From the NCBI GenBank assembly GCA_003242085.1, contig QBML01000040.1:1-47746 (forward strand): a DNA stretch of 47,746 nt, written 5' to 3'. Source of the DNA: Pseudanabaena frigida (GTDB taxonomy: Bacteria; Cyanobacteriota; Cyanobacteriia; Pseudanabaenales; Pseudanabaenaceae). Of this stretch, positions 36,683-47,689 are shown piece by piece; position 1 is the stretch's first letter, and every line of letters starts with the position of its first letter. Made by a program: the position numbers and the translations under genes. The notes under the pieces are model-generated. The model searched no databases. It saw only the letters and a program-made list of their open reading frames with translations, and had not been told where the DNA came from.

Positions 36683-36701
36683 ATTTTAGGTGATATATCA
36701 A

Positions 36702-38384
36702 GTGAGAAAACAATCAATGTCTAATACTCGATTTGAACAAATGCAAAAGTCTTTAGTGGGCACGATCGCTATTTCAGTGATGGGGATCATGCCCAGTGTC
36801 ATATCGGGTGTATCCGCTCAATCTATGCCAGCACCATCTAGTCAATCATCAGAGCGATCGCTTCCGCCCAAACAGGATGTCATTGGACAGAACGTAACAT
36901 CAGTCTCACAACTCAGTGATGTCCGCCCAACAGATTGGGCTTTTACAGCTTTGCAGTCTTTAGTCGAGCGTTATGGCTGTATTGCAGGATATCCTGACCG
37001 CACTTTTCGGGGCAAACAAGCAACTAGCCGCTATGAATTTGCGGCAGGCTTAAATGCTTGTCTCGACAAAATCAATGAAATTATTTCCGCAGGATTAGCC
37101 GACAAAGTTAGCAAGGAAGACCTCGCCACATTGCAAAAACTACAAGAGGAATTTGCCGCCGAACTTGCCACACTGCGCGGTCGAGTCGATGCTCTGGATA
37201 GCAAAACCGCCAAGTTGGAAGCTCAACAATTCTCGCCTACCACCAAGCTCGACGGTCAAGCGATTATGGCTGTATCTGCAAGTGGCTCAGGCACTGATAA
37301 CCTTTTGAGTCCCAATGGAAGCCTATCTGGTAATTTTGGTAAAGCGAATACCACAGTCATTAGTCGTGTGCGGCTAAACTTGAATACTAGCTTTACAGGC
37401 GAAGACTTGTTGTTAACTCGCTTAGAAGTTGGTAATGGGGGAGCTAATGTCGCTAATTCTCTTGATGGAGCAAATAATGTTTTTCGTGGGTTTACGGGGA
37501 TTAGGAATAGCTCCGTTGCCGACTATAGCGAAGTTGGTAATAACTTGACATTAGGTCGGTTACGATATGATTTCCCTATTGGCAAAGACATTCAAGTTTC
37601 AATTGGTCCCGTAATGGCACTAAATGACCATCTGGACAAAAACAGTTTTGCCAACGACGAATCGGTTGATTTCTCAAGTCGTCTATTTATTAATAATCCA
37701 CTTGTACTTCCTGTCAATGACGGGGCTGGAGCCGCGATCTCATGGAATATTGGTGGTAGTGCTTTCACATTCAGAGCAGGGTATGTGGCGGCTAATGCTA
37801 ATAGTCCAACTGCTAATTCTACCGCTCCTAATGGAGCTATTAATCAAGGTTTATTTGGAGATTCTTACCAAGGTACTTTCGAACTAGAATTTGCCCCGAA
37901 AAATAGTGCGCAGGATCAACCTTTTGCTATACGTTTGCAATATACTCGCGCTGCGGTAAATAACCTTGATTACAATACAGGCGGCGTGAATCTTGAGTGG
38001 GCATTTAATAAAGCGATCGCCATTTTTGGTCGCTACGGATTTGGCAATATTAGCAATCGTGGCACGGCTATCTCTACAGCTCTCAGTTCTTATATCAACG
38101 TTGGCGCGACAGGTGATTCGATTAGTCCCCAAACTTGGTCGGCGGGTCTAGCATTCCCAGATTTATTTAAAGAAGGCGCAATGGCAGCGATCGCGGTCGG
38201 ACAGCCTTTCATTGAGAGTAAGATCGGCAACGCTACTCAAACTAATGTTGAGTTGTTCTATCGCTTTCCAGTCTCAAACAATATCAGTATCACGCCAGAT
38301 TTACAGTTTATTTTCAATCCCAACAACAACAGTGGTAATAGCACAATTACAGTTGGTACATTGAGAACCGTGTTTACTTTTTAG
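36702..38384 (+). CDS. SLH-domain OprB-type porin
   Basis: Outer-membrane porin of the cyanobacterial SLH-OprB family. A signal peptide is followed by cleavage near SAQ-SMP. The SLH domain is near residues 70-120 (DVRPTDWAFTALQSLVERYG, then AGYPDRTFRGKQATSRYEFA), which binds pyruvylated peptidoglycan. A coiled coil (KEDLATLQKLQEEFAAELATL) leads into a beta-barrel region ending with the aromatic terminus VGTLRTVFTF. I prefer the GTG at 36702, with AGGTGA about 8 nt upstream; an ATG at 36717 or GTG at 36690 are alternatives. Fur-like sites suggest an iron-controlled porin, by inference. Confidence 0.9.
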   Translation: MRKQSMSNTRFEQMQKSLVGTIAISVMGIMPSVISGVSAQSMPAPSSQSSERSLPPKQDVIGQNVTSVSQLSDVRPTDWAFTALQSLVERYGCIAGYPDRTFRGKQATSRYEFAAGLNACLDKINEIISAGLADKVSKEDLATLQKLQEEFAAELATLRGRVDALDSKTAKLEAQQFSPTTKLDGQAIMAVSASGSGTDNLLSPNGSLSGNFGKANTTVISRVRLNLNTSFTGEDLLLTRLEVGNGGANVANSLDGANNVFRGFTGIRNSSVADYSEVGNNLTLGRLRYDFPIGKDIQVSIGPVMALNDHLDKNSFANDESVDFSSRLFINNPLVLPVNDGAGAAISWNIGGSAFTFRAGYVAANANSPTANSTAPNGAINQGLFGDSYQGTFELEFAPKNSAQDQPFAIRLQYTRAAVNNLDYNTGGVNLEWAFNKAIAIFGRYGFGNISNRGTAISTALSSYINVGATGDSISPQTWSAGLAFPDLFKEGAMAAIAVGQPFIESKIGNATQTNVELFYRFPVSNNISITPDLQFIFNPNNNSGNSTITVGTLRTVFTF

Positions 38385-38475: not shown

Positions 38476-40095
38476 CTAAGCAAGTGGTGTTAACTCCGCA
38501 ATTGGCGCGATCGCTTTTAACCTTAATTTCGGATGATCGGCTTCCACTTGATTCAAATTCCATTGGTTTTTGAATAGAAGCACGGGACGATTCCAGCTAT
38601 CTTTAACTACCATTGTGTTGAAAAGTCTACCAACGGCTTCGAGAGCGTCCCAACCATCCTCAACCCAACGCGCTACAGAATAGGGCATTGATTCAAGAAT
38701 TGTTTCTACACTATATTCACTTTGTAGGCGATACTGAGCAACTTCAAACTGTAGCTGTCCTACTGCGGCAAGAATAGGATCTCGTTTGGATTCATCAACG
38801 GAATACATGATTTGAATTGCGCCTTCTTCTTGCAACTCCGATATACCTTTACGAAACTGTTTGAATTTAGAAGGATTTGGATTGCGGAGAGTACAGAATA
38901 GTTCTGGCGAGAAGCAAGGAATTCCCGCGTATTGACGCTTTTTACCAAGATAAATAGTGTCACCGATCGCAAACATTCCAGGATTATTCAAACCAATCAC
39001 ATCGCCAGCATAGGCAACCTCGATCGCTTCCCGATCCTGTCCGAATAACTTTTGAGCGTGGGATAAGCGAATAACTTTACCACTGCGTAGATGGGTAACG
39101 CTCATATCTTTTTCAAACTTACCAGAGCAGACACGCACAAAGGCAATGCGATCGCGATGGCGGGGATCCATATTTGCTTGGAGTTTGAACACAAAAGCTG
39201 AGAAATCCTCATCAGTAGGCGAGACTTCCCCAGTCGAACTATCGTGAACCGTTGGAGTCATGCCACACTCAAGGAATGATTTTAGGAATAGTTCTACCCC
39301 AAAGTTAGTCATCGCACTGCCGAAGAAAATCGGTGTGAGTTTGCCGCGATGCAAATCTTGAGTATTCCATTCTGCTCCAAGCGAGTCAATAACTTCCAAA
39401 TCTTCTAAGAACTGGTTATAAAGATCTTTGCCAATAAATTTAATCGCTTGGGGATCGTCAAAAGGATAAATGTTAACATCTGCCTCTCTCTGTCCGTGGG
39501 CACTACGCTTAAATAAATGCACAGTCTTACTAGCGCGATCGTACACACCTTTAAACTGATCCCCCGTACCGATCGCCCAATTCATTACATAGGGCGTAAT
39601 TCCTAACTCTTTCTCAATTTCATCTAATAACTCAAGTGGCTCGCGAGTAGGGCGATCCATTTTGTTGATAAATGTAAAAATTGGCAGCGATCGCATCCGA
39701 CAAACTTCAAATAATTTACGAGTTTGTGGCTCAAGCCCCTTTGCGCCATCAACCAACATCACCGCATTATCGGCTGCCGCAAGGGTGCGATAGGTATCTT
39801 CACTAAAATCTTTGTGACCAGGAGTATCCAGCAAATTAATGCAGTAGCCCATATAGTCAAACTGCAACACGGTCGAAGTGATCGAAATTCCGCGCTGTTT
39901 TTCTAATTCCATCCAGTCCGATGTAGCATGACGTTGCGCTGCTCTTGCCTTGACTGCACCTGCAAGATGAATAGCACCTCCATACAGCAATAACTTTTCA
40001 GTTAACGTCGTTTTCCCCGCATCGGGGTGGGAAATAATTGCAAAGGTGCGTCGCCGTTCGACTTCGCGCTCTAACTCTTGCCACATTTGACTCAT
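38476..40095 (-). CDS. prfC: Peptide chain release factor 3
   Basis: GTPase that recycles RF1 and RF2 from the ribosome. G1 is [15 protein letters not shown] near residue 21. It is followed by the switch region [18 protein letters not shown]3 [14 protein letters not shown], and G4 [11 protein letters not shown]. The C-terminal domain has [16 protein letters not shown]. 539 aa, standard. It ends close to the convergent porin gene and stands alone. Confidence 0.97.
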
Positions 40096-40561
40096 GAAAA
40101 TTTTAAAAAACTCTTTTGACTTTATCAGTACTACATCTATTATGCTTATTTTTTAACGCAAATTTTCCTAAACCTAGAAAGTAGAAAAGGATATGAATCC
40201 CCCCTTTTCTAAAAGATTTATAGCAATACAAGTTTTGCTTAGGAAATAAAACCCAAATAAATAGAGGCGGCGCTTTGCGCCGCCTCTATTTATTTGGGTT
40301 TTGATTTGTCCTAGCTATCTCTTTCATTGCTATACATGCACTATTCACTCAAAATGTTTTGTCAGGATTTTAAGTTTAGGATTGTCAACTCGAAGCGCTA
40401 TAGAAATCCTAAATGATATGAGAGGCTTTGACTTCGCTCAGCCTGCGTAGAGCGGCGACTAAACGAAGTTAAAGCCCTGTGATTGTCGAAGTATTGAAAC
40501 CTTGAATCTTACGAATGATTTAGGACTGTTATATGCTGACCGTATCTAACAACAAAAAATA
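40096..40561. other. Intergenic region between prfC and the S4-domain gene
   Basis: 466 bp between divergent genes. It contains the full element copy F and an inverted repeat at 40424-40476 (13-bp arms, one wobble mismatch, 27-nt loop). No gene seen. Confidence 0.55.
40219..40334. repeat. Palindromic interspersed element, copy F (complete)
   Basis: Terminal tatagcaat (40219-40227) and attgctata (40326-40334). Central stem of 26 perfect pairs (40248-40273 with 40277-40302), ttt loop. The left flank reverse-complements to nearly the right flank of copy C. Confidence 0.9.
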
Positions 40562-40801
40562 ATGCAAGAAAACTTTCAAGAAAAATTTGAACTGACTGGC
40601 GAGTATATTACTTTGTGTAACTTATTAAAGGTTTGCGGTGTAGCTGATACTGGTGGTGTAGCAAAGTTAATGATTATCGATGGTGATGTTGAGGTTGATG
40701 GTCAGGTTGAATTACGTAAAGGCTGCAAAATCCGCGCAGGTCAGAGAGTAAGTGGGTACGGGTTTACAATTTATGTAGTAGCTAGTAGCCATTTAGATTA
40801 G
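40562..40801 (+). CDS. S4-domain RNA-binding protein (YbcJ/YaaA-like)
   Basis: 79-residue single S4 domain. The family pattern is clear: ITLCNLLKVCGVADTGGVAKLMI, DGDVEVDGQVELRKGCKIRAGQ and a final beta strand. Members bind structured RNA; the exact target is unknown. It starts with ATG and precedes the cyclase genes by 66 bp, so it may be co-transcribed with them. Confidence 0.85.
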   Translation: MQENFQEKFELTGEYITLCNLLKVCGVADTGGVAKLMIIDGDVEVDGQVELRKGCKIRAGQRVSGYGFTIYVVASSHLD

Positions 40802-40867: not shown

Positions 40868-42487
40868 TTGCATCTCGGTAAGTATAAAAATCTGATCGTT
40901 AATTACCTAGCTAAGCTCTTTAACAATCTGCCGCTAATGGCTACTTTGGCGGTATTTCTGGGCTTGCAAATTATTGCGATATTTTTCTGGCGAAAAGAGC
41001 TTTTTGATGGCAATCTCGATACTAAATTAACTATTCAATCGCAATTTTTAAATATCATTGATGTAAATAAGCCGATGTTGCTTGAGTCGTTGCGCTGGGT
41101 AATTATCTTGATCGCGATCGCAGGTAGCGGCGTTTTGGCGAGATCGGTAATTTTGAACTGGCAGCGCCTGAAAAAGTCGAATCAGGAATTAGAATCACTG
41201 GTCAAAGAAAGAAGCAATGAGTTAGATGCATCCAAATCTTCATTGCAGCGCACTAATTTTCTTTTAAGTCGGCGCGAACAACAACTGCGGAAACAGCAGA
41301 ACGTTTTGTTTGCTTTGACTAAAGATAAAGCGATCAATCAAGGTGATTTTATTGTCGCGGTGCAAAATATTACAAGAACAGGCAGTTTTGCTCTAAATGT
41401 TGAGCGTGTAAGTATTTGGCTATTTAATAAAAATAAAACTGTATTGCATTGCCTCGATCTTTATCAAAAGACTCTCAATTCTCATACTGAAGCCGATATT
41501 TTAACGGCAGAAAAATATCCTAGTTTCTTTAATGCATTACTAGAAAATCGCACTGTTTCTGCCGAAGATCTTCAAGAGGAAAGTATATTCAAAGAACTAC
41601 TCCCATCCTATTGCTTGCCTTTGGGGATTGTTTCGATTCTTCTGTCTAGATTTGATGTGGGTGGTGAGATTATGGGTATTCTTGCTTTTGAGCATACGGA
41701 GATCGAACATCTATGGCTTGAAGAAGAGATAAGCTTTGCTAACTCTCTCTCTGATTTATTAGCTTTAGGAATGGAGGCTCAAGAGCGACGACGAGTAGAA
41801 GAGAGCTTGCGAATTGAGCAAAAAAAATCAGAACGCCTCTTGCTGAATGTCTTACCACCAGAAATAGCTGAACGACTCAAGTCCGTGCAATCTATGACTA
41901 AAGTGCACTTAAAAAGTAGTGGGACAATTGTTGCAGACTCTTTTGATGTGGTTACAGTCTTATTTGCGGATATTGTGAATTTTACTGAATATGCTGCTTC
42001 CATTTCTGCTAGTGAATTGGTGAACGTCCTAAATGAAATTTTTTCGGAGTTCGATTACCTAGTTGAGCAATATGATTTAGAGAAAATTAAAACTATTGGC
42101 GATTCCTATATGGTAGTCGGTGGTTTACCTGTACCCAGTGACGGTCATGCTGAAGCGATCGCGGAAATGGCATTACAGATGCAATCATCAATTAAAAAAT
42201 TTAAGCGCACGGATGGCAGTGACTTTTCACTTCGGATTGGTATTCACACTGGACAGGCGATCGCAGGCGTTATTGGCACTAAGAAATTTATTTACGATTT
42301 GTGGGGTGACACAGTTAATGTTGCAAGTAGGATGGAGTCCTATGGTATTGCTGATTGTATCCAAGTAACTGAAGTCACATATCAACTTTTAAAACATAAA
42401 TATCTTCTAGAACAGAGAAGTGCTATCAATATTAAAGGTAAGGGAGAGATGACAACCTATCTACTAAAAGAGCGAATAGAGATTTAG
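40868..42487 (+). CDS. Class III adenylate cyclase 1 (sensor domain lost)
   Basis: Predicted to make cAMP from ATP. Two membrane segments (about residues 24-42 and 72-95) enclose only about 30 residues, so no CACHE domain is left. There is no clear HAMP domain. A coiled coil leads to a GAF domain (about 150-305), the LLLNVLPPEIAERLK transducer helix, and the cyclase domain. Catalytic residues are intact: metal Asp368 and Asp412, ATP-selecting Lys408 and Asp477, and Asn484 and Arg488. A TTG start at 40868 aligns with the paralogues; the first ATG, at 40937, would cut the first helix. First of three tandem cyclases. Confidence 0.88.
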   Translation: MHLGKYKNLIVNYLAKLFNNLPLMATLAVFLGLQIIAIFFWRKELFDGNLDTKLTIQSQFLNIIDVNKPMLLESLRWVIILIAIAGSGVLARSVILNWQRLKKSNQELESLVKERSNELDASKSSLQRTNFLLSRREQQLRKQQNVLFALTKDKAINQGDFIVAVQNITRTGSFALNVERVSIWLFNKNKTVLHCLDLYQKTLNSHTEADILTAEKYPSFFNALLENRTVSAEDLQEESIFKELLPSYCLPLGIVSILLSRFDVGGEIMGILAFEHTEIEHLWLEEEISFANSLSDLLALGMEAQERRRVEESLRIEQKKSERLLLNVLPPEIAERLKSVQSMTKVHLKSSGTIVADSFDVVTVLFADIVNFTEYAASISASELVNVLNEIFSEFDYLVEQYDLEKIKTIGDSYMVVGGLPVPSDGHAEAIAEMALQMQSSIKKFKRTDGSDFSLRIGIHTGQAIAGVIGTKKFIYDLWGDTVNVASRMESYGIADCIQVTEVTYQLLKHKYLLEQRSAINIKGKGEMTTYLLKERIEI

Positions 42488-42562
42488 AATAGTCTTGGAA
42501 GCGCTAAACACTAAATATTCTAAATCTAAGACCCATTCTTTAGCGCAACTTACCCGTGCATC

Positions 42563-44821
42563 ATGTTTAAAATCCCCAATATAATAGCTACACCATTTAA
42601 AAATGTTCCACTTAAAGTTGTTCTAGCACTTCCATTTGTAATAGAAATTTGCTTGGCAACGGGATTGATTTGGGGATTTACTTTTTATAATGGACAGCAA
42701 ACTGTGGAGATGATGGCAGAGAGTTTGAGTGGTTCAATAGGCGATCTCATTAGCTTAGAACTAAACAACTATTTACACAGAGCGTCACAGATTAAAAAAT
42801 CGAATGCCGATTATATTCCCACCCAAATTAGTATATTTCTTCGCAATCTGAAAATTAGCGAAAAAGGACGGGTTTTTGCGATCGACCGTTCTGGTTTAGT
42901 AATTGGAACTTCTGCACCCGAACAAACCTTTTCAGTAGTAAATGGAAAAACTCAGCGACTAAATATTCTAGATAGTAAAGATGCTCTATCGCAATCAACA
43001 GCACAATATCTTCTTAAAAGGTATGGTAAGTTTGCGATGTTTCAAGGAAATGATCATATAAATACACTTTTAGAAGGTGAAGATCATTTTATTCGCGTAC
43101 AGAATTGGCGCGATGACTATGGATTAGATTGGTTGATCGTAATTGTGGTTCCAGTATCGCAATTTACTGGTTCAATGCACGATCGAACTCAGATCGCGAT
43201 TTTGCTATGTTATGCCGTGTTAGCGATCGCAATTTTGCTCGGCATGATTACTGCAAGATCGATTACTACACCACTACTTAATTTAAGTGAAGCTTCAAAA
43301 GCGATTACTCTTGGCAAAACATTTACTAGCGTGAAAGTCGAGGGAGCTGGTGAAATTAAAATTTTGTCAGAATCATTTAATACGATGGCTGAAATGATAG
43401 CGAATTCATTTTTGCAATTAGAGAATTTAAATCAAGAACTAGAAATGCGAGTACAGGAAAGAACTCACGAACTGAACGCCTCAAAAGCGGATCTACAACG
43501 TACAAATTTCTTATTGAACCGGCGAGAGAGCCTACTCCGAAAACAACAGGATATTCTGTTTAGTCTTACTAAAGACAAATCAATTAATCAAGGAGATTTT
43601 ATTGTTGCAGTTCAAAATATCACCCGTACAGGTAGTCACGCTTTAAATGTTGAAAGAGTAGGTATTTGGCTATTTGATACCGCAAAAACTCTGCTACATT
43701 GCCTCGATCTATATATCAAAAGTACAAATACGCATACAGAAGCAGATTTTTTAACTTCTCAAGAATATCCTAATTTCTTTGCTGCTCTCCGCGCAAAACA
43801 TAGTATAGCTGTAGAAGATATTCAAGAAGATGAAGCTTTACAAGAGCTGATCGAGCCCTACTTCCAGCCTGCTGGAACAGTATCTTTATTGGTCAAAGCC
43901 TTTGAAACTGACGGAGAGGTCACGGGGATGATTTTCTTTGAACATACTGAAATCGAGCATTTATGGCTAGCTGAGGAGCATGGTTTTGCCAGTTCCTTGG
44001 CAGATTTATTATCTTTGGGGATGGAATCGCAAGAACGTCGCCGTGCCGAAGAGAACCTGCGAATTGAACAGATGAAGTCGGAACGATTATTGTTAAATGT
44101 TTTACCCCAAGAGATTGTAGAACGATTGAAATTATCACAGTCAAAGGCTTTAGCAAATAAAATCTCCGAGACCTATACAAGCGATATATTAGATCCCGAT
44201 CCTATATTTGATGGCTTCTCAAATGGAAATGGTGGGGCAATTGTTGCCGATACATTTGATGAAGTTACGGTTTTATTTGCAGATATTGTGAGATTTACTG
44301 AATATGCGGCTTCTATTTCTGCGAGTGAATTAGTCAATCGCCTAAACGATATCTTTTCAGAGTTCGATCGCCTCGTGGATTTATACGATCTAGAAAAAAT
44401 TAAAACTATTGGAGATTCTTACATGGCAGTTGGAGGACTGCCGACACCAAGCAAAGATCATGCTGAAGCGATCGCGGAAATGGCTCTGGAAATGCAAGCA
44501 TCAATTAAAAAGTTTAAACGTGATGATGGTAGTGCTTTTTCTCTGCGGATCGGTATTCATACTGGTCAGGCGATTGCAGGTGTTATTGGCACTAAAAAGT
44601 TTATTTACGATCTTTGGGGCGATACGGTTAATGTCGCGAGTCGGATGGAGTCTAGTGGTGTAGATGGTTGCATTCAAGTAACCGAAGTGACTTATCAACT
44701 TCTAAAAGACAAGTATCAATTTGAAACAAGGAGAGAGATCGAAATCAAAGGTAAGGGTAAGATGACTACTTATTTACTCACTGGAAGGTTATCAATTCCC
44801 CATTTACAAACGATCTATTAG
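42563..44821 (+). CDS. Class III adenylate cyclase 2 (shortened CACHE sensor)
   Basis: Same plan as the next gene but with a smaller extracytoplasmic part. TM1 is near 16-38, the sensor covers about 39-208, and TM2 is near 209-231 (AILLCYAVLAIAILLGMITA). A HAMP domain, coiled coil, GAF, transducer helix (LLLNVLPQEIVERLK) and cyclase follow. Compared with gene 3, about 140 residues that form the first half of a double CACHE sensor are missing between NADYIPTQIS and IFLRNLKISEKG. Catalytic Asp574, Lys614, Asp618 and Asp683 are present. ATG start. 75 bp after gene 1 and 69 bp before gene 3, so likely one operon. Confidence 0.9.
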   Translation: MFKIPNIIATPFKNVPLKVVLALPFVIEICLATGLIWGFTFYNGQQTVEMMAESLSGSIGDLISLELNNYLHRASQIKKSNADYIPTQISIFLRNLKISEKGRVFAIDRSGLVIGTSAPEQTFSVVNGKTQRLNILDSKDALSQSTAQYLLKRYGKFAMFQGNDHINTLLEGEDHFIRVQNWRDDYGLDWLIVIVVPVSQFTGSMHDRTQIAILLCYAVLAIAILLGMITARSITTPLLNLSEASKAITLGKTFTSVKVEGAGEIKILSESFNTMAEMIANSFLQLENLNQELEMRVQERTHELNASKADLQRTNFLLNRRESLLRKQQDILFSLTKDKSINQGDFIVAVQNITRTGSHALNVERVGIWLFDTAKTLLHCLDLYIKSTNTHTEADFLTSQEYPNFFAALRAKHSIAVEDIQEDEALQELIEPYFQPAGTVSLLVKAFETDGEVTGMIFFEHTEIEHLWLAEEHGFASSLADLLSLGMESQERRRAEENLRIEQMKSERLLLNVLPQEIVERLKLSQSKALANKISETYTSDILDPDPIFDGFSNGNGGAIVADTFDEVTVLFADIVRFTEYAASISASELVNRLNDIFSEFDRLVDLYDLEKIKTIGDSYMAVGGLPTPSKDHAEAIAEMALEMQASIKKFKRDDGSAFSLRIGIHTGQAIAGVIGTKKFIYDLWGDTVNVASRMESSGVDGCIQVTEVTYQLLKDKYQFETRREIEIKGKGKMTTYLLTGRLSIPHLQTIY

Positions 44822-44890
44822 CCCGATGATAATTGAGTATTAGACTAGCTATGTTTCTGCTTAAAATGTTACAAGATATGCATCATATAC

Positions 44891-47557
44891 ATGTTTAAAG
44901 TGGCGCTTACTACTCATATCGTCAAAAGCCTAAAAAATATACCTTTAAAGGTGATTTTAGTTGTGCCTTTTGTTGTTCAGATTTGTATAGCTGTCGGAGT
45001 AGTAGGAATATTGTCTTTTCGCAATGGACAGCAATCAGTAAGTGAATTAGCCACGAGGTTAAGCGGCGAAGTCAGCGATCTCATTAGTACAAAGCTGGAT
45101 AATTACTTAAAAATACCGCCACAGATTAATCAAGCTAACGTTGATGCAGTGAAGTTAGGACTTCTAAATCTCAAGAATTTCCAGCAAACTGGTAAGTTCT
45201 TTTGGGCACAACTACATCTATATGAAGTTGGCTATATTAACTTTGCTTTTAATAATCAAGAATTTATTGGTGCTGAGCGAAGAGATAATGGCCAACTAAT
45301 TATTAATGAGACAACTTTAGCAAGAGGAGTCACGAAAACTGCAAGCTTTTCCACCGATAGCGAAGGGAATCGCCAAAAACTAGAAGAAGTTATCGAAACA
45401 TCTAAAGATGTCCGAGAAGAAGCATGGTATGCCGATGCAGTAAAAGCGGGTAAGGCGACATGGACGAGAATTTATCAATGGGACGATCGCCCCGAAGTAT
45501 TATCAATTTCCCATAGCTATCCACTTTACGATCGCGATCGCAAGTTGATTGGTGTATTAGGTATTGATTATATTCTTACGCAATTAAATGCTTTTCTTCT
45601 AGATCTGAAATCCGATCGGTCAAGTCGCATTTTTATTATTGAGCGATCGGGATTAGTGGTGGGAAATTCTAACAATGAGCGTTCTTTTATGTTGATTAAT
45701 GGAAAGCCGCAACGTTTAAATATCCTTAACAGTAATGATCCTCTAACAAGAGCTACTGCTCGTTATCTCAGTAATGAATTTGGTGGTTTTGAGTCGATTC
45801 AAGGGAAGAAGCAACTTGAGCCAATTTTAGAAAATGAAAAGCAGTTTATTCAGTTACAGTCTTGGCGCGATCGCGATGGACTCGATTGGCTAATTGTGGT
45901 CGTTGTGCCTGAGTCTAGCTTTATGGGGCAAATTTACGATCGTACGCAGTTTACAATTTTATTTAGTCTAGCAGCATTGGCTTTAGCAATCTTAATTGGA
46001 ATGATAACAGCACGCTCGATTACAGCTCCACTGCTTAAATTGAGCGGAGCTTCGCAGGCGATCGCGGATGGAAATCTAGATTCTAGAGTATCTATACAGG
46101 GAACCAGCGAAGTTAAGGTTTTATCTGAGTCATTTAATCGCATGGCAGAAATGCTTACGGAATCATTTAATCGTCTAGAAAAAGCGAATACTGAATTAGA
46201 AACAAGGGTGCAACAAAGAACAAGCGAACTGCACGATTCGCAATTATCACTACAAAGAAGTAACTTTTTATTACAGCGACGCGAACAGCAACTGCGGAGG
46301 CAACAAAAGGTCTTGATCGAGCTCACCAGAAATAAAGCGCTCAATCTGGGTGATTTTATTATGGCAGTGCAAAACATTACTAAATCTGCGAGCCAAACTC
46401 TAGATGTTGAAAGAGTTAGCGTTTGGCTATTTGATAATACTAAGACCAGATTGCATTGCCTCGATATGTATGTCAAAAGTAGCAATACTCACAATGAAGC
46501 TGATTTCTTAGGTGCGGAGCAATTTCCGATCTTTTTTGCCGCCCTTCAAGAAACCCGCAGCCTGGCAATAGAAGATGTGCAAGAAGAAGATCCAGTAGTT
46601 GAGCTTCGACAAGACTATCTTAATCCACTTGGAATAGTGTCTCTATTAGTATCTGCCTTCGATCTTGCTGGCGAACTAACAGGGATTTTGATGTTTGAGC
46701 AAGTTGAGATAGAGCGTTGTTGGATGTTAGAGGAAATTAGTTTTGCTAGTTCTTTAGGCGAGTTATTGTCTTTGGGCATGGAAGCTCAGGAACGCCGACG
46801 GGTAGAAGACAACTTGAGGATCGAGCAGATGCGCTCAGAAAAACTATTACTAAATGTTTTGCCAAAAGCGATCGCCGAACGTTTGAAATCCTCTCAGATT
46901 TATACGCCTAACAATATTCCTACCAGTGTCGTTATTAATAGACCTTCTGAACCGCTGACAAATTCCATGTCAAAGTTGAGGAATACTGGCACAATTGTTG
47001 CCGACACCTTTGAGGAGGTAACTGTTCTTTTCGGAGATATCGTCGGATTTACTGAATTTGCATCAGCAGTGTCAGCAACGGAATTAGTAAATATGCTCAA
47101 TGAGGTGTTTTCAGAATTCGATCGCTTAGTAGATTTCTACGGTCTAGAAAAAATTAAAACGATTGGTGATTCCTATATGGCGGTCGGTGGCCTGCCGCTG
47201 CCAAGACCCGATCATGCTGAAGCGATCGCGACAATGGCTTTAGAAATGCAAAAGACGATTAGTAAATTTATCCGCCACGATGGCAGTTCTTTCAAGCTTC
47301 GGATTGGTATTCATACTGGACAAGCAGTTGCAGGTGTAATCGGAAAGAAGAAATTTATTTACGATCTGTGGGGAGATACAGTAAATATTGCTAGTCGGAT
47401 GGAGTCTCATGGAGTTGCAGGTCTAATTCAAGTAACGGAAGTAACCTATCAACTTTTAAAAAACAAATACCAATTTACTCCCAAGAGGGTGATTGAGATT
47501 AAGGGTAAAGGTGAAATGGTTACTTACTTTTTAACAGGAAAACTAGACGTTACATAG
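44891..47557 (+). CDS. Class III adenylate cyclase 3 (full double CACHE sensor)
   Basis: Membrane cyclase with TM1 (about residues 17-40), a dCACHE sensor in the periplasm (about 41-350), TM2 (about 352-374), HAMP, coiled coil, GAF (about 480-640), LLLNVLPKAIAERLK and a C-terminal cyclase domain. The CACHE fold has the WYADAVKAGKATWTRIYQWD and SISHSYPLYDRDRKLIGVLGIDY segments typical of small-ligand binding. Metal Asp716 and Asp760, and ATP-selecting Lys756 and Asp825, argue for cAMP rather than cGMP. 888 aa. cAMP in cyanobacteria controls motility and gene expression through CRP-type receptors. Confidence 0.93.
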   Translation: MFKVALTTHIVKSLKNIPLKVILVVPFVVQICIAVGVVGILSFRNGQQSVSELATRLSGEVSDLISTKLDNYLKIPPQINQANVDAVKLGLLNLKNFQQTGKFFWAQLHLYEVGYINFAFNNQEFIGAERRDNGQLIINETTLARGVTKTASFSTDSEGNRQKLEEVIETSKDVREEAWYADAVKAGKATWTRIYQWDDRPEVLSISHSYPLYDRDRKLIGVLGIDYILTQLNAFLLDLKSDRSSRIFIIERSGLVVGNSNNERSFMLINGKPQRLNILNSNDPLTRATARYLSNEFGGFESIQGKKQLEPILENEKQFIQLQSWRDRDGLDWLIVVVVPESSFMGQIYDRTQFTILFSLAALALAILIGMITARSITAPLLKLSGASQAIADGNLDSRVSIQGTSEVKVLSESFNRMAEMLTESFNRLEKANTELETRVQQRTSELHDSQLSLQRSNFLLQRREQQLRRQQKVLIELTRNKALNLGDFIMAVQNITKSASQTLDVERVSVWLFDNTKTRLHCLDMYVKSSNTHNEADFLGAEQFPIFFAALQETRSLAIEDVQEEDPVVELRQDYLNPLGIVSLLVSAFDLAGELTGILMFEQVEIERCWMLEEISFASSLGELLSLGMEAQERRRVEDNLRIEQMRSEKLLLNVLPKAIAERLKSSQIYTPNNIPTSVVINRPSEPLTNSMSKLRNTGTIVADTFEEVTVLFGDIVGFTEFASAVSATELVNMLNEVFSEFDRLVDFYGLEKIKTIGDSYMAVGGLPLPRPDHAEAIATMALEMQKTISKFIRHDGSSFKLRIGIHTGQAVAGVIGKKKFIYDLWGDTVNIASRMESHGVAGLIQVTEVTYQLLKNKYQFTPKRVIEIKGKGEMVTYFLTGKLDVT

Positions 47558-47590: not shown

Positions 47591-47689
47591 ATAGCAGTAC
47601 ATAAAACCCAAAAGATTAGTAGCAGCGCGAAGCGCTGCTACTAATCTTTTGGGTTTTGATTTGTCCTAATTATCTCTTTCGTTGCTATA
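47591..47689. repeat. Palindromic interspersed element, copy G
   Basis: Central stem 26 bp perfect (47603-47628 with 47632-47657), gaa loop, stem starting aaaaccca. The right flank (gatttgtcctaattatc) ends gctata and nearly matches that of copy F. The left flank is short (atagcagtac). Confidence 0.88.

Follow-up and report, generated by a model that had tools for sequence, protein, structure and literature searches.

Three tandem class III adenylate cyclases of Pseudanabaena frigida that differ in how much of a periplasmic sensor they retain

The DNA analyzed here (the window) is a complete contig of 47,746 bases, QBML01000040.1, from the freshwater cyanobacterium Pseudanabaena frigida (genome of 5,385,214 bases), and our subject is a cluster of three class IIIa adenylate cyclase genes, designated genes 1, 2, and 3, near its end. 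The genes lie head to tail on the plus strand, separated by spacers of 75 nucleotides (genes 1 and 2) and 69 nucleotides (genes 2 and 3), and the view in this genome ends with the contig, 3' of gene 3. Their products share a coiled coil, a GAF domain, and a class III catalytic domain and differ in what precedes these, i.e., two Cache modules in gene 3, one in gene 2, and none in gene 1 (Table 1). Over the aligned columns gene 2 is 61% and gene 1 is 56% identical to gene 3; within the catalytic domain the values are 77% and 69%, respectively. We consider it highly probable that a full receptor-cyclase was duplicated in tandem and that the sensor was then lost stepwise while the enzyme was kept.

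Table 1. Features of the cyclase cluster and one adjacent reading frame, in window coordinates (TM1 and TM2, first and second transmembrane helix; ORF, open reading frame; aa, amino acids)
Feature	Coordinates	Strand	Basis
Small S4-domain ORF (PF13275, YbcJ/YaaA-like), between the prfC-like gene and gene 1	40565-40801		Profile match
Gene 1: TM1-short loop-TM2-coiled coil-GAF-catalytic domain; 539 aa; TTG start uncertain	40868-42487	+	ORF, Pfam, hydropathy
Gene 1 TM1; resembles gene 3 TM1 (hhalign E 1.6e-4, probability 51%)	40928-40984	+	
Gene 1 TM2; leads directly into the coiled coil, no HAMP	41099-41155	+	
Gene 1 GAF domain	41351-41767	+	Pfam
Gene 1 class III catalytic domain	41930-42469	+	Pfam, motifs, alignment
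Gene 2: TM1-single Cache-TM2-HAMP-coiled coil-GAF-catalytic domain; 752 aa	42563-44821	+	ORF, Pfam
Gene 2 remaining membrane-proximal Cache module	42818-43177	+	Alignment, model
Gene 2 HAMP domain	43250-43399	+	Pfam
Gene 2 GAF domain	43601-44017	+	Pfam
Gene 2 class III catalytic domain	44246-44782	+	Pfam, motifs
Gene 3: TM1-dCache_1-TM2-HAMP-coiled coil-GAF-catalytic domain; 888 aa	44891-47557	+	ORF, Pfam
Gene 3 membrane-distal Cache module, counterpart missing in gene 2; edges approximate	45146-45568	+	Alignment, model
Gene 3 membrane-proximal Cache module	45575-45925	+	Pfam, alignment, model
Gene 3 HAMP domain	46007-46159	+	Pfam
Gene 3 GAF domain	46361-46774	+	Pfam
Gene 3 class III catalytic domain	47000-47536	+	Pfam, motifs

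The catalytic domains of genes 1, 2, and 3 matched PF00211 (Guanylate_cyc) with 218.8, 223.3, and 223.6 bits, respectively, against a curated cut-off of 21.9, which places all three in class III. The catalytic residues of gene 1 are D368, D412, K408, D477, N484, and R488, with equivalents in genes 2 and 3; we take them to be, in this order, the two metal aspartates, the adenine-specific lysine and aspartate, and the transition-state asparagine and arginine. The metal, substrate, and transition-state motifs turned out to be intact in genes 1 to 3 and throughout the 39 orthologue rows (12 of gene 3, 8 of gene 2, 2 of a shortened gene 2, and 17 of gene 1), and a loss of catalytic residues in any paralogue was therefore rejected. 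A strict pattern for the transducer helix, written from the window sequences, found no match in 29 of the same 39 rows. Compared with AC9 and AC5, each chain unites elements that the mammalian enzymes divide between their halves, namely, the metal aspartates (first half) and the EKIKTIG, YD-WG-TVN-ASRM, and KGKG motifs (second half). Each of the three enzymes would be expected to act as a homodimer with two active sites, as every chain has the metal aspartates together with the residues that bind the substrate.

An earlier note, made from the letters of the window, had described three tandem adenylate cyclases with a common catalytic half, GAF domain, and transducer helix, extracytoplasmic parts of about 310, 170, and 30 residues in genes 3, 2, and 1, no HAMP in gene 1, and all metal and substrate residues kept. 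The open reading frames, Pfam matches, and alignment agree with this description, and the spacing between the hydropathy helices TM1 and TM2 is 313, 173, and 38 residues, respectively. The N-terminal length of gene 1 is a guess because its start codon is uncertain: it is TTG in the window, the orthologues in two genomes (G016 and G011) have no ATG, GTG, or TTG before the middle of TM1, and that in G025 has none upstream of the beginning of TM1. The hydropathy scan also weakly marked residues 219-237 of gene 3, which form a Cache strand in the structure model.

Gene 3 qualifies as a dCache_1 receptor, with PF02743 above its cut-off (54.7 bits versus 45) and two Cache modules in its model; its HAMP (PF00672, cut-off 25) and GAF matches scored 51.3 and 35.5 bits. 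Gene 2 gave 29.7 bits for HAMP and 27.5 for GAF but fails as a dCache_1 receptor, as the match (16.0 bits) covers only profile positions 152-225, the tail, and the distal module is missing. No sCache family matched it at an E value of 1 or less in Pfam, and Cache_WalK reached 12.6 bits against a cut-off of 27; gene 2 is modelled and laid out like a single-Cache receptor but lies below the Pfam single-Cache cut-offs. In gene 1, Pfam recognized the GAF domain (33 bits) and found neither HAMP nor Cache at an E value of 1 or less. In essence, gene 2 is the architecture of gene 3 minus about residues 84-228 of the latter, that is, minus the membrane-distal module. According to excerpts of PMC12415202, the distal module of a dCache_1 structure is a central block (residues 57-206) and the two ends together form the proximal module; ligands assigned there to distal modules are amino acids, amines, purines, uracil, and dicarboxylates, and one proximal module is assigned short-chain fatty acids. 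The proximal half of dCache_1 is described as more similar to sCache_2 in the portion of PMC4822843 used here.

Structure models were built for residues 1-300 of gene 2 (31 sequences) and residues 1-440 of gene 3 (27 sequences); the alignment for gene 2 includes gene 3-type sequences, and the two models are therefore not independent. The gene 2 model (mean predicted local distance difference test [pLDDT] score, 83.3) consists of one long helix and one Cache fold, with a pLDDT above 90 in 8 of the 10 blocks of residues 101-200, while that of gene 3 (mean pLDDT, 83.4) has two Cache folds. The best PDB match of the gene 2 model was 9a5d (E 3.1e-11), a WalK-YycH model of integrative and not crystallographic origin. 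The gene 3 model best matched integrative models of the McpB chemoreceptor and then crystal structures of dCache chemoreceptors, such as TlpA and PscC, at about 1e-10.

The order of events was read from three trees. In the tree of GAF plus catalytic domains (46 rows, rooted with seven other cyanobacterial GAF cyclases), gene 3 (support, 97/83) branches first and genes 1 and 2 are sisters (99/98), gene 2 (100/98), gene 1 (99/95), and the outgroup (100/100) each forming one group. In the tree of the proximal Cache module plus HAMP (57 rows), genes 2 and 3 form one group (100/99) separate from 37 relatives. The distal module is in register in 49 of the 57 rows (the 37 relatives and the 12 of gene 3), and the 8 rows of gene 2 all lack it. 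The gene 2 orthologues preserve gene-3-like residues on either side of the missing stretch. The catalytic domains alone also united genes 1 and 2 (100/98), and the trio as against the paralogues in the same genome (100/98). An independent ancient architecture for gene 1 or gene 2 was rejected on these trees. The findings that the earlier note had named as refuting its reading did not turn up: genes 1 and 2 are nested sisters and no outside lineage, and their catalytic motifs are intact. The stepwise loss proposed in that note is supported by the rooted tree of GAF plus catalytic domains, by the grouping of genes 2 and 3 in the Cache and HAMP tree, and by the distal module in register in the relatives and gene 3: gene 2 would have lost its distal module and gene 1 its Cache and HAMP. 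By this reading the ancestor of the trio had a proximal Cache module and a HAMP domain and very likely a distal module as well. Loss of the distal module may have preceded or followed the split of genes 1 and 2, since gene 1 has shed the region that would tell. At both edges of the missing stretch gene 3 carries the five bases TTGAT, 423 bases apart and in frame; such a repeat could have aided a deletion and is too short to count as evidence.

We also looked for a remnant of the sensor in the loop of gene 1. With hhalign, residues 52-70 of gene 1 were placed on residues 267-285 of gene 3 (E 0.011, probability 3.8%); for gene 2 the alignment had only 59 columns and was little informative (gene 3 of G010 and gene 2 of G011 and G027 were left out). 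Six of 10 gene 1 loops fitted best on that stretch of gene 3 or its gene 2 equivalent (those of the window, G016, G025, G011, G022, and G027), with 29, 12, 3, 2, 2, and 4 of 300 shuffles, respectively, doing at least as well; the six are related and not independent. A clade-weighted consensus of the loops was equalled by 155 of 5,000 shuffles against gene 3 and 135 of 5,000 against gene 2 (p of about 0.03), in a test that was chosen after the match was seen and with loops delimited by eye.

The distribution of the cluster was determined by a family search of 38 genomes, 26 of them of the same genus, in which the matches listed reach down to about 235 bits and cluster members score at least 571 bits. 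Members were found in 19 of the 26 genomes of the genus and, among the matches listed, in none of the 12 outside it; the closest named records are Phormidium tenue FACHB-1050, Pseudanabaena sp. UWO311, and Pseudanabaena cinerea FACHB-1277, and a gene 3 homologue with 93% identity is present in a metagenome bin. All three genes occur in seven genomes (our own, G030, G026, G016, G025, G011, and G022), genes 1 and 3 in three (G018, G008, and G014, the last with the pair on separate contigs), genes 1 and 2 in G027, whose contig ends 335 bases past gene 2, gene 1 with a shortened gene 2 in G021 and G029, in neither of which the family search found gene 3, gene 1 alone in four (G032, G023, G012, and G013), and gene 3 alone in two (G031 and G010). 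Several of these genomes are drafts, and single absences may be gaps. Gene 1 adjoins prfC in 15 of 17 cases, the exceptions being G026 (contig edge) and G008, in which no window gene lies in the 16 kb beyond gene 1.

This distribution bears on the possibility that genes 1 and 2 serve gene 3 as regulatory partners, their short chains entering heterodimers with the sensor-bearing one and diluting or retuning it. The short spacers suggest a single transcript, and mixed dimers are conceivable given the identity of the catalytic domains. However, obligate heterodimers are unlikely because gene 1 occurs alone in four genomes and gene 3 in two, and genes 1 and 2 are found without gene 3 in G027 and, with gene 2 shortened, in G021 and G029. 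Assembly gaps could account for G027 and perhaps for G031 (76% complete), but hardly for G013, whose assembly is a single contig. On the whole, we regard a partnership of this kind as unlikely.

We then compared the ratio of nonsynonymous to synonymous substitution rates (dN/dS) between domains. For the window versus G030, it was 0.08 in the N-terminus plus distal module, 0.12 in the proximal module, and 0.049 in the catalytic domain of gene 3; 0.27 in the N-terminus plus ectodomain and 0.069 in the catalytic domain of gene 2; and 0.36 in the N-terminus (a value weakened by the doubtful start) and 0.037 in the catalytic domain of gene 1. More distant pairs, most with dS above 1 and with dN/dS not computable in 6 of 56 domain comparisons, gave the same order (gene 3 ectodomain, 0.10 to 0.15; gene 2, 0.20 to 0.31; gene 1, 0.45 to 0.62). 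The catalytic domains are thus under strong purifying selection, and the constraint on the N-terminal parts falls from gene 3 through gene 2 to gene 1. It seems very improbable to us that genes 1 and 2 are merely duplicates decaying into pseudogenes, with the lost sensors meaningless for function. Such decay would fit the gene 2 of G018, a frameshifted remnant of the catalytic domain (L144:7416-7843) separated from gene 1 by about 1.6 kb that shows no similarity to the cluster, the failure to find gene 2 in several genomes, and the fast-evolving N-terminus and nonconserved start codon of gene 1. Against it stand a catalytic dN/dS of 0.016 to 0.069 in the gene 1 and gene 2 pairs for which it was computable (eight of nine), the intact catalytic motifs of all 17 gene 1 and all 10 gene 2 rows, and the four genomes in which gene 1 is the sole remaining member. 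The reverse course, in which a short, sensor-less GAF cyclase like gene 1 acquired first a proximal and then a distal Cache module, could draw on gene 1 being the most widespread member (17 of the 19 genomes with any) and on the other sensors of six of the seven rooting cyclases, which imply that sensors come and go, but has the least to recommend it, since gene 3 branches first with genes 1 and 2 as sisters, the homologous proximal module and HAMP of genes 2 and 3 must have been present in their common ancestor, which is also that of gene 1, and all 37 other rows with a proximal module also have a distal one.

Returning to tandem duplication followed by stepwise sensor loss, several observations weigh against it. 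The gene 2 model has only weak matches among crystal structures (two-module KinD sensor 4jgo, 3e-4; WalK 7dud and 4ywz, about 2e-3). In the catalytic-only tree gene 3 forms no supported single group, the divergent gene 3 of G010 lying unplaced at the base, and the outgroup of distant paralogues does not fall on one side of a branch, so that no clean rooting is obtained. A double Cache is present in only one of the seven rooting proteins (L064), the other six having DAHL, MASE1, CHASE2, or CHASE4, and the full-sensor ancestor therefore rests on the Cache tree and not on the architecture of the outgroup. Four of the 10 gene 1 loops (G030, G018, G008, and G014) were placed elsewhere, with 75, 76, 236, and 135 of 300 shuffles, and a proximal-Cache relic in the gene 1 loop is suggestive only. 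Finally, in the pair with G022 the catalytic dN/dS of gene 3 (0.116) is at the level of its ectodomain.

The ancestor would have been a membrane receptor-cyclase with TM1, a periplasmic double Cache, TM2, HAMP, a coiled coil, GAF, and a class IIIa catalytic domain, duplicated in tandem beside the prfC-like gene in the Pseudanabaena lineage. One lineage would have retained the full receptor (gene 3). In the other, an in-frame deletion would have removed the membrane-distal Cache module (gene 2), and from the sister copy of gene 2 the Cache module still left would have disappeared together with HAMP (gene 1). Gene 3 may make cyclic AMP (cAMP) when a small periplasmic ligand binds the distal module, with the signal passing through HAMP and the coiled coil; gene 2, without the distal site, would sense the outside, if at all, through its proximal module, as in WalK-type receptors, and gene 1, without an outside sensor, would be set by its GAF domain, expression, or basal activity. 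That distinct inputs might feed one cAMP pool, as the earlier note suggested, is plausible.

The loss continued in relatives. Gene 2 of G021 and G029 has 610 residues, in which TM1 is followed directly by the last strand of the proximal module, TM2, and HAMP, with no Cache. TM1 of gene 1 is above the hydropathy threshold in 9 of its 17 orthologues (an extra stretch before the first in-frame start in G021 was excluded). In a DNA tree of prfC (16 genomes, rooted on G023 for display), G021, G029, G032, G012, and G013 form one clade (100/100), and no cluster member found in these five genomes retains a Cache domain. It is tempting, if on balance doubtful, to see in this a directional and recurrent loss from the outside inward (distal Cache, proximal Cache, HAMP, first membrane helix) that turns an outside-sensing operon into a system set from inside, two paralogues having shed the proximal module independently and the cluster of the five genomes having become unable to sense the periplasm, with strong selection still acting on its catalytic domains. 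If so, what is selected would be the GAF-cyclase core, and the cell could do without the periplasmic sensor.

The ligand of the GAF domain was considered next. All three GAF domains have a cysteine in an H-C-L-D strand, which is common to four other cyanobacterial GAF domains and is kept in all 39 rows when a looser pattern is used; the strict H-C-L-D-L-Y pattern, written from the window, found no match in 5 of the 39. Its position differs from the canonical place of the bilin-binding cysteine. Matches to solved GAF domains were weak, the best being to a sensor protein (E 2e-4) and a bilin-binding GAF (0.003). Bilin binding is not supported by these observations, although it may still occur. 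The suggestion that the GAF domains might sense cyclic nucleotides was not upheld, as the motif NKXnFX3DE (NKFDE type) is absent from the three window proteins.

Upstream of the cluster, on the opposite strand, lies the prfC-like gene (38476-40095), which we read by eye as presumably encoding peptide-chain release factor 3, and at 36690-38384 the window encodes an SLH-OprB iron-uptake-type porin (NCBIfam por_somb, 399.6 bits). A hairpin repeat whose stem varies and whose tail is constant brackets the cyclase cluster, with both copies in the same orientation (40248-40334 and 47603-47689); its 30-base core has 10 exact copies in the genome and 2 in the window at up to 3 mismatches. The repeats were rejected as the cause of the cluster, as no copy was found in 15 of 18 related loci (copies are near the cluster in L141, L142, and L151). 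The genome has a large cyclase set, with 29 PF00211 matches in 5.4 Mb, all above the family cut-off. Two class III cyclase matches of this genome (C9:50977-51465 and 74470-74958; L015 and L016) each sit in a locus of 3,489 bases; the two loci are identical and about 23.5 kb from each other, either a recent duplication or an assembly artefact.

Signalling by cAMP is described for cyanobacteria (excerpts of PMC10117731 and PMC4284465). Comparisons of modular sensors usually draw on proteins that are not related to each other; in the present case, a matched series on one GAF-cyclase core in an operon-like cluster offers two Cache modules, one, or none, with and without HAMP, and orthologues at further stages, and so amounts to a natural experiment. 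Two questions become testable with it: how a proximal Cache module functions once its distal partner is missing, and how activity is set in a membrane cyclase that has lost its periplasmic sensor and HAMP. Among the matches listed in a literature search, none described this cluster by title or abstract start, which is no proof of its absence in print.

The closest known systems each match part of this series. Cyanobacterial dCache_1-HAMP receptor cyclases (L064, L068, L070, and others) share the order TM1-dCache_1-TM2-HAMP with a C-terminal catalytic domain, and gene 3 is one of them; L064, L068, and L070 differ in having PAS between HAMP and the catalytic domain (L064 also GAF), whereas gene 3 has one GAF and no PAS. 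Gene 2 resembles the WalK receptor in TM1-single Cache-TM2-HAMP, and the NCBIfam WalK model covers its residues 12-295 (E 1.7e-13), although its 50 bits fall far short of the cut-off of 725; WalK, in contrast, is a histidine kinase, and gene 2 would have reached this layout through loss of the distal module. CyaB1/CyaB2 and the bicarbonate-regulated Cya1/CyaB1 have a GAF ahead of a class III catalytic domain, as genes 1 to 3 do, but genes 1 to 3 lack the NKFDE-type motif, and the match between the present GAF and 1ykd, the GAF structure of an adenylate cyclase, has an E value of no better than 0.43. Mammalian-type class IIIa cyclases (AC9 and AC5) are alike in the catalytic domain, with the metal aspartates, substrate lysine and aspartate, asparagine/arginine pair, and KGKG, whereas they have polytopic membrane parts and no Cache-HAMP-GAF input in this order; the solved adenylate cyclase chains 5o5k and 4p2f, related in the catalytic domain, are presumably mycobacterial. 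Sensor exchange and loss is a known theme in class III cyclases. What is unusual here is a complete series of sensor loss within one tandem cluster, with the loss continuing in relatives; it represents a natural series of truncations and not a novel type of system.

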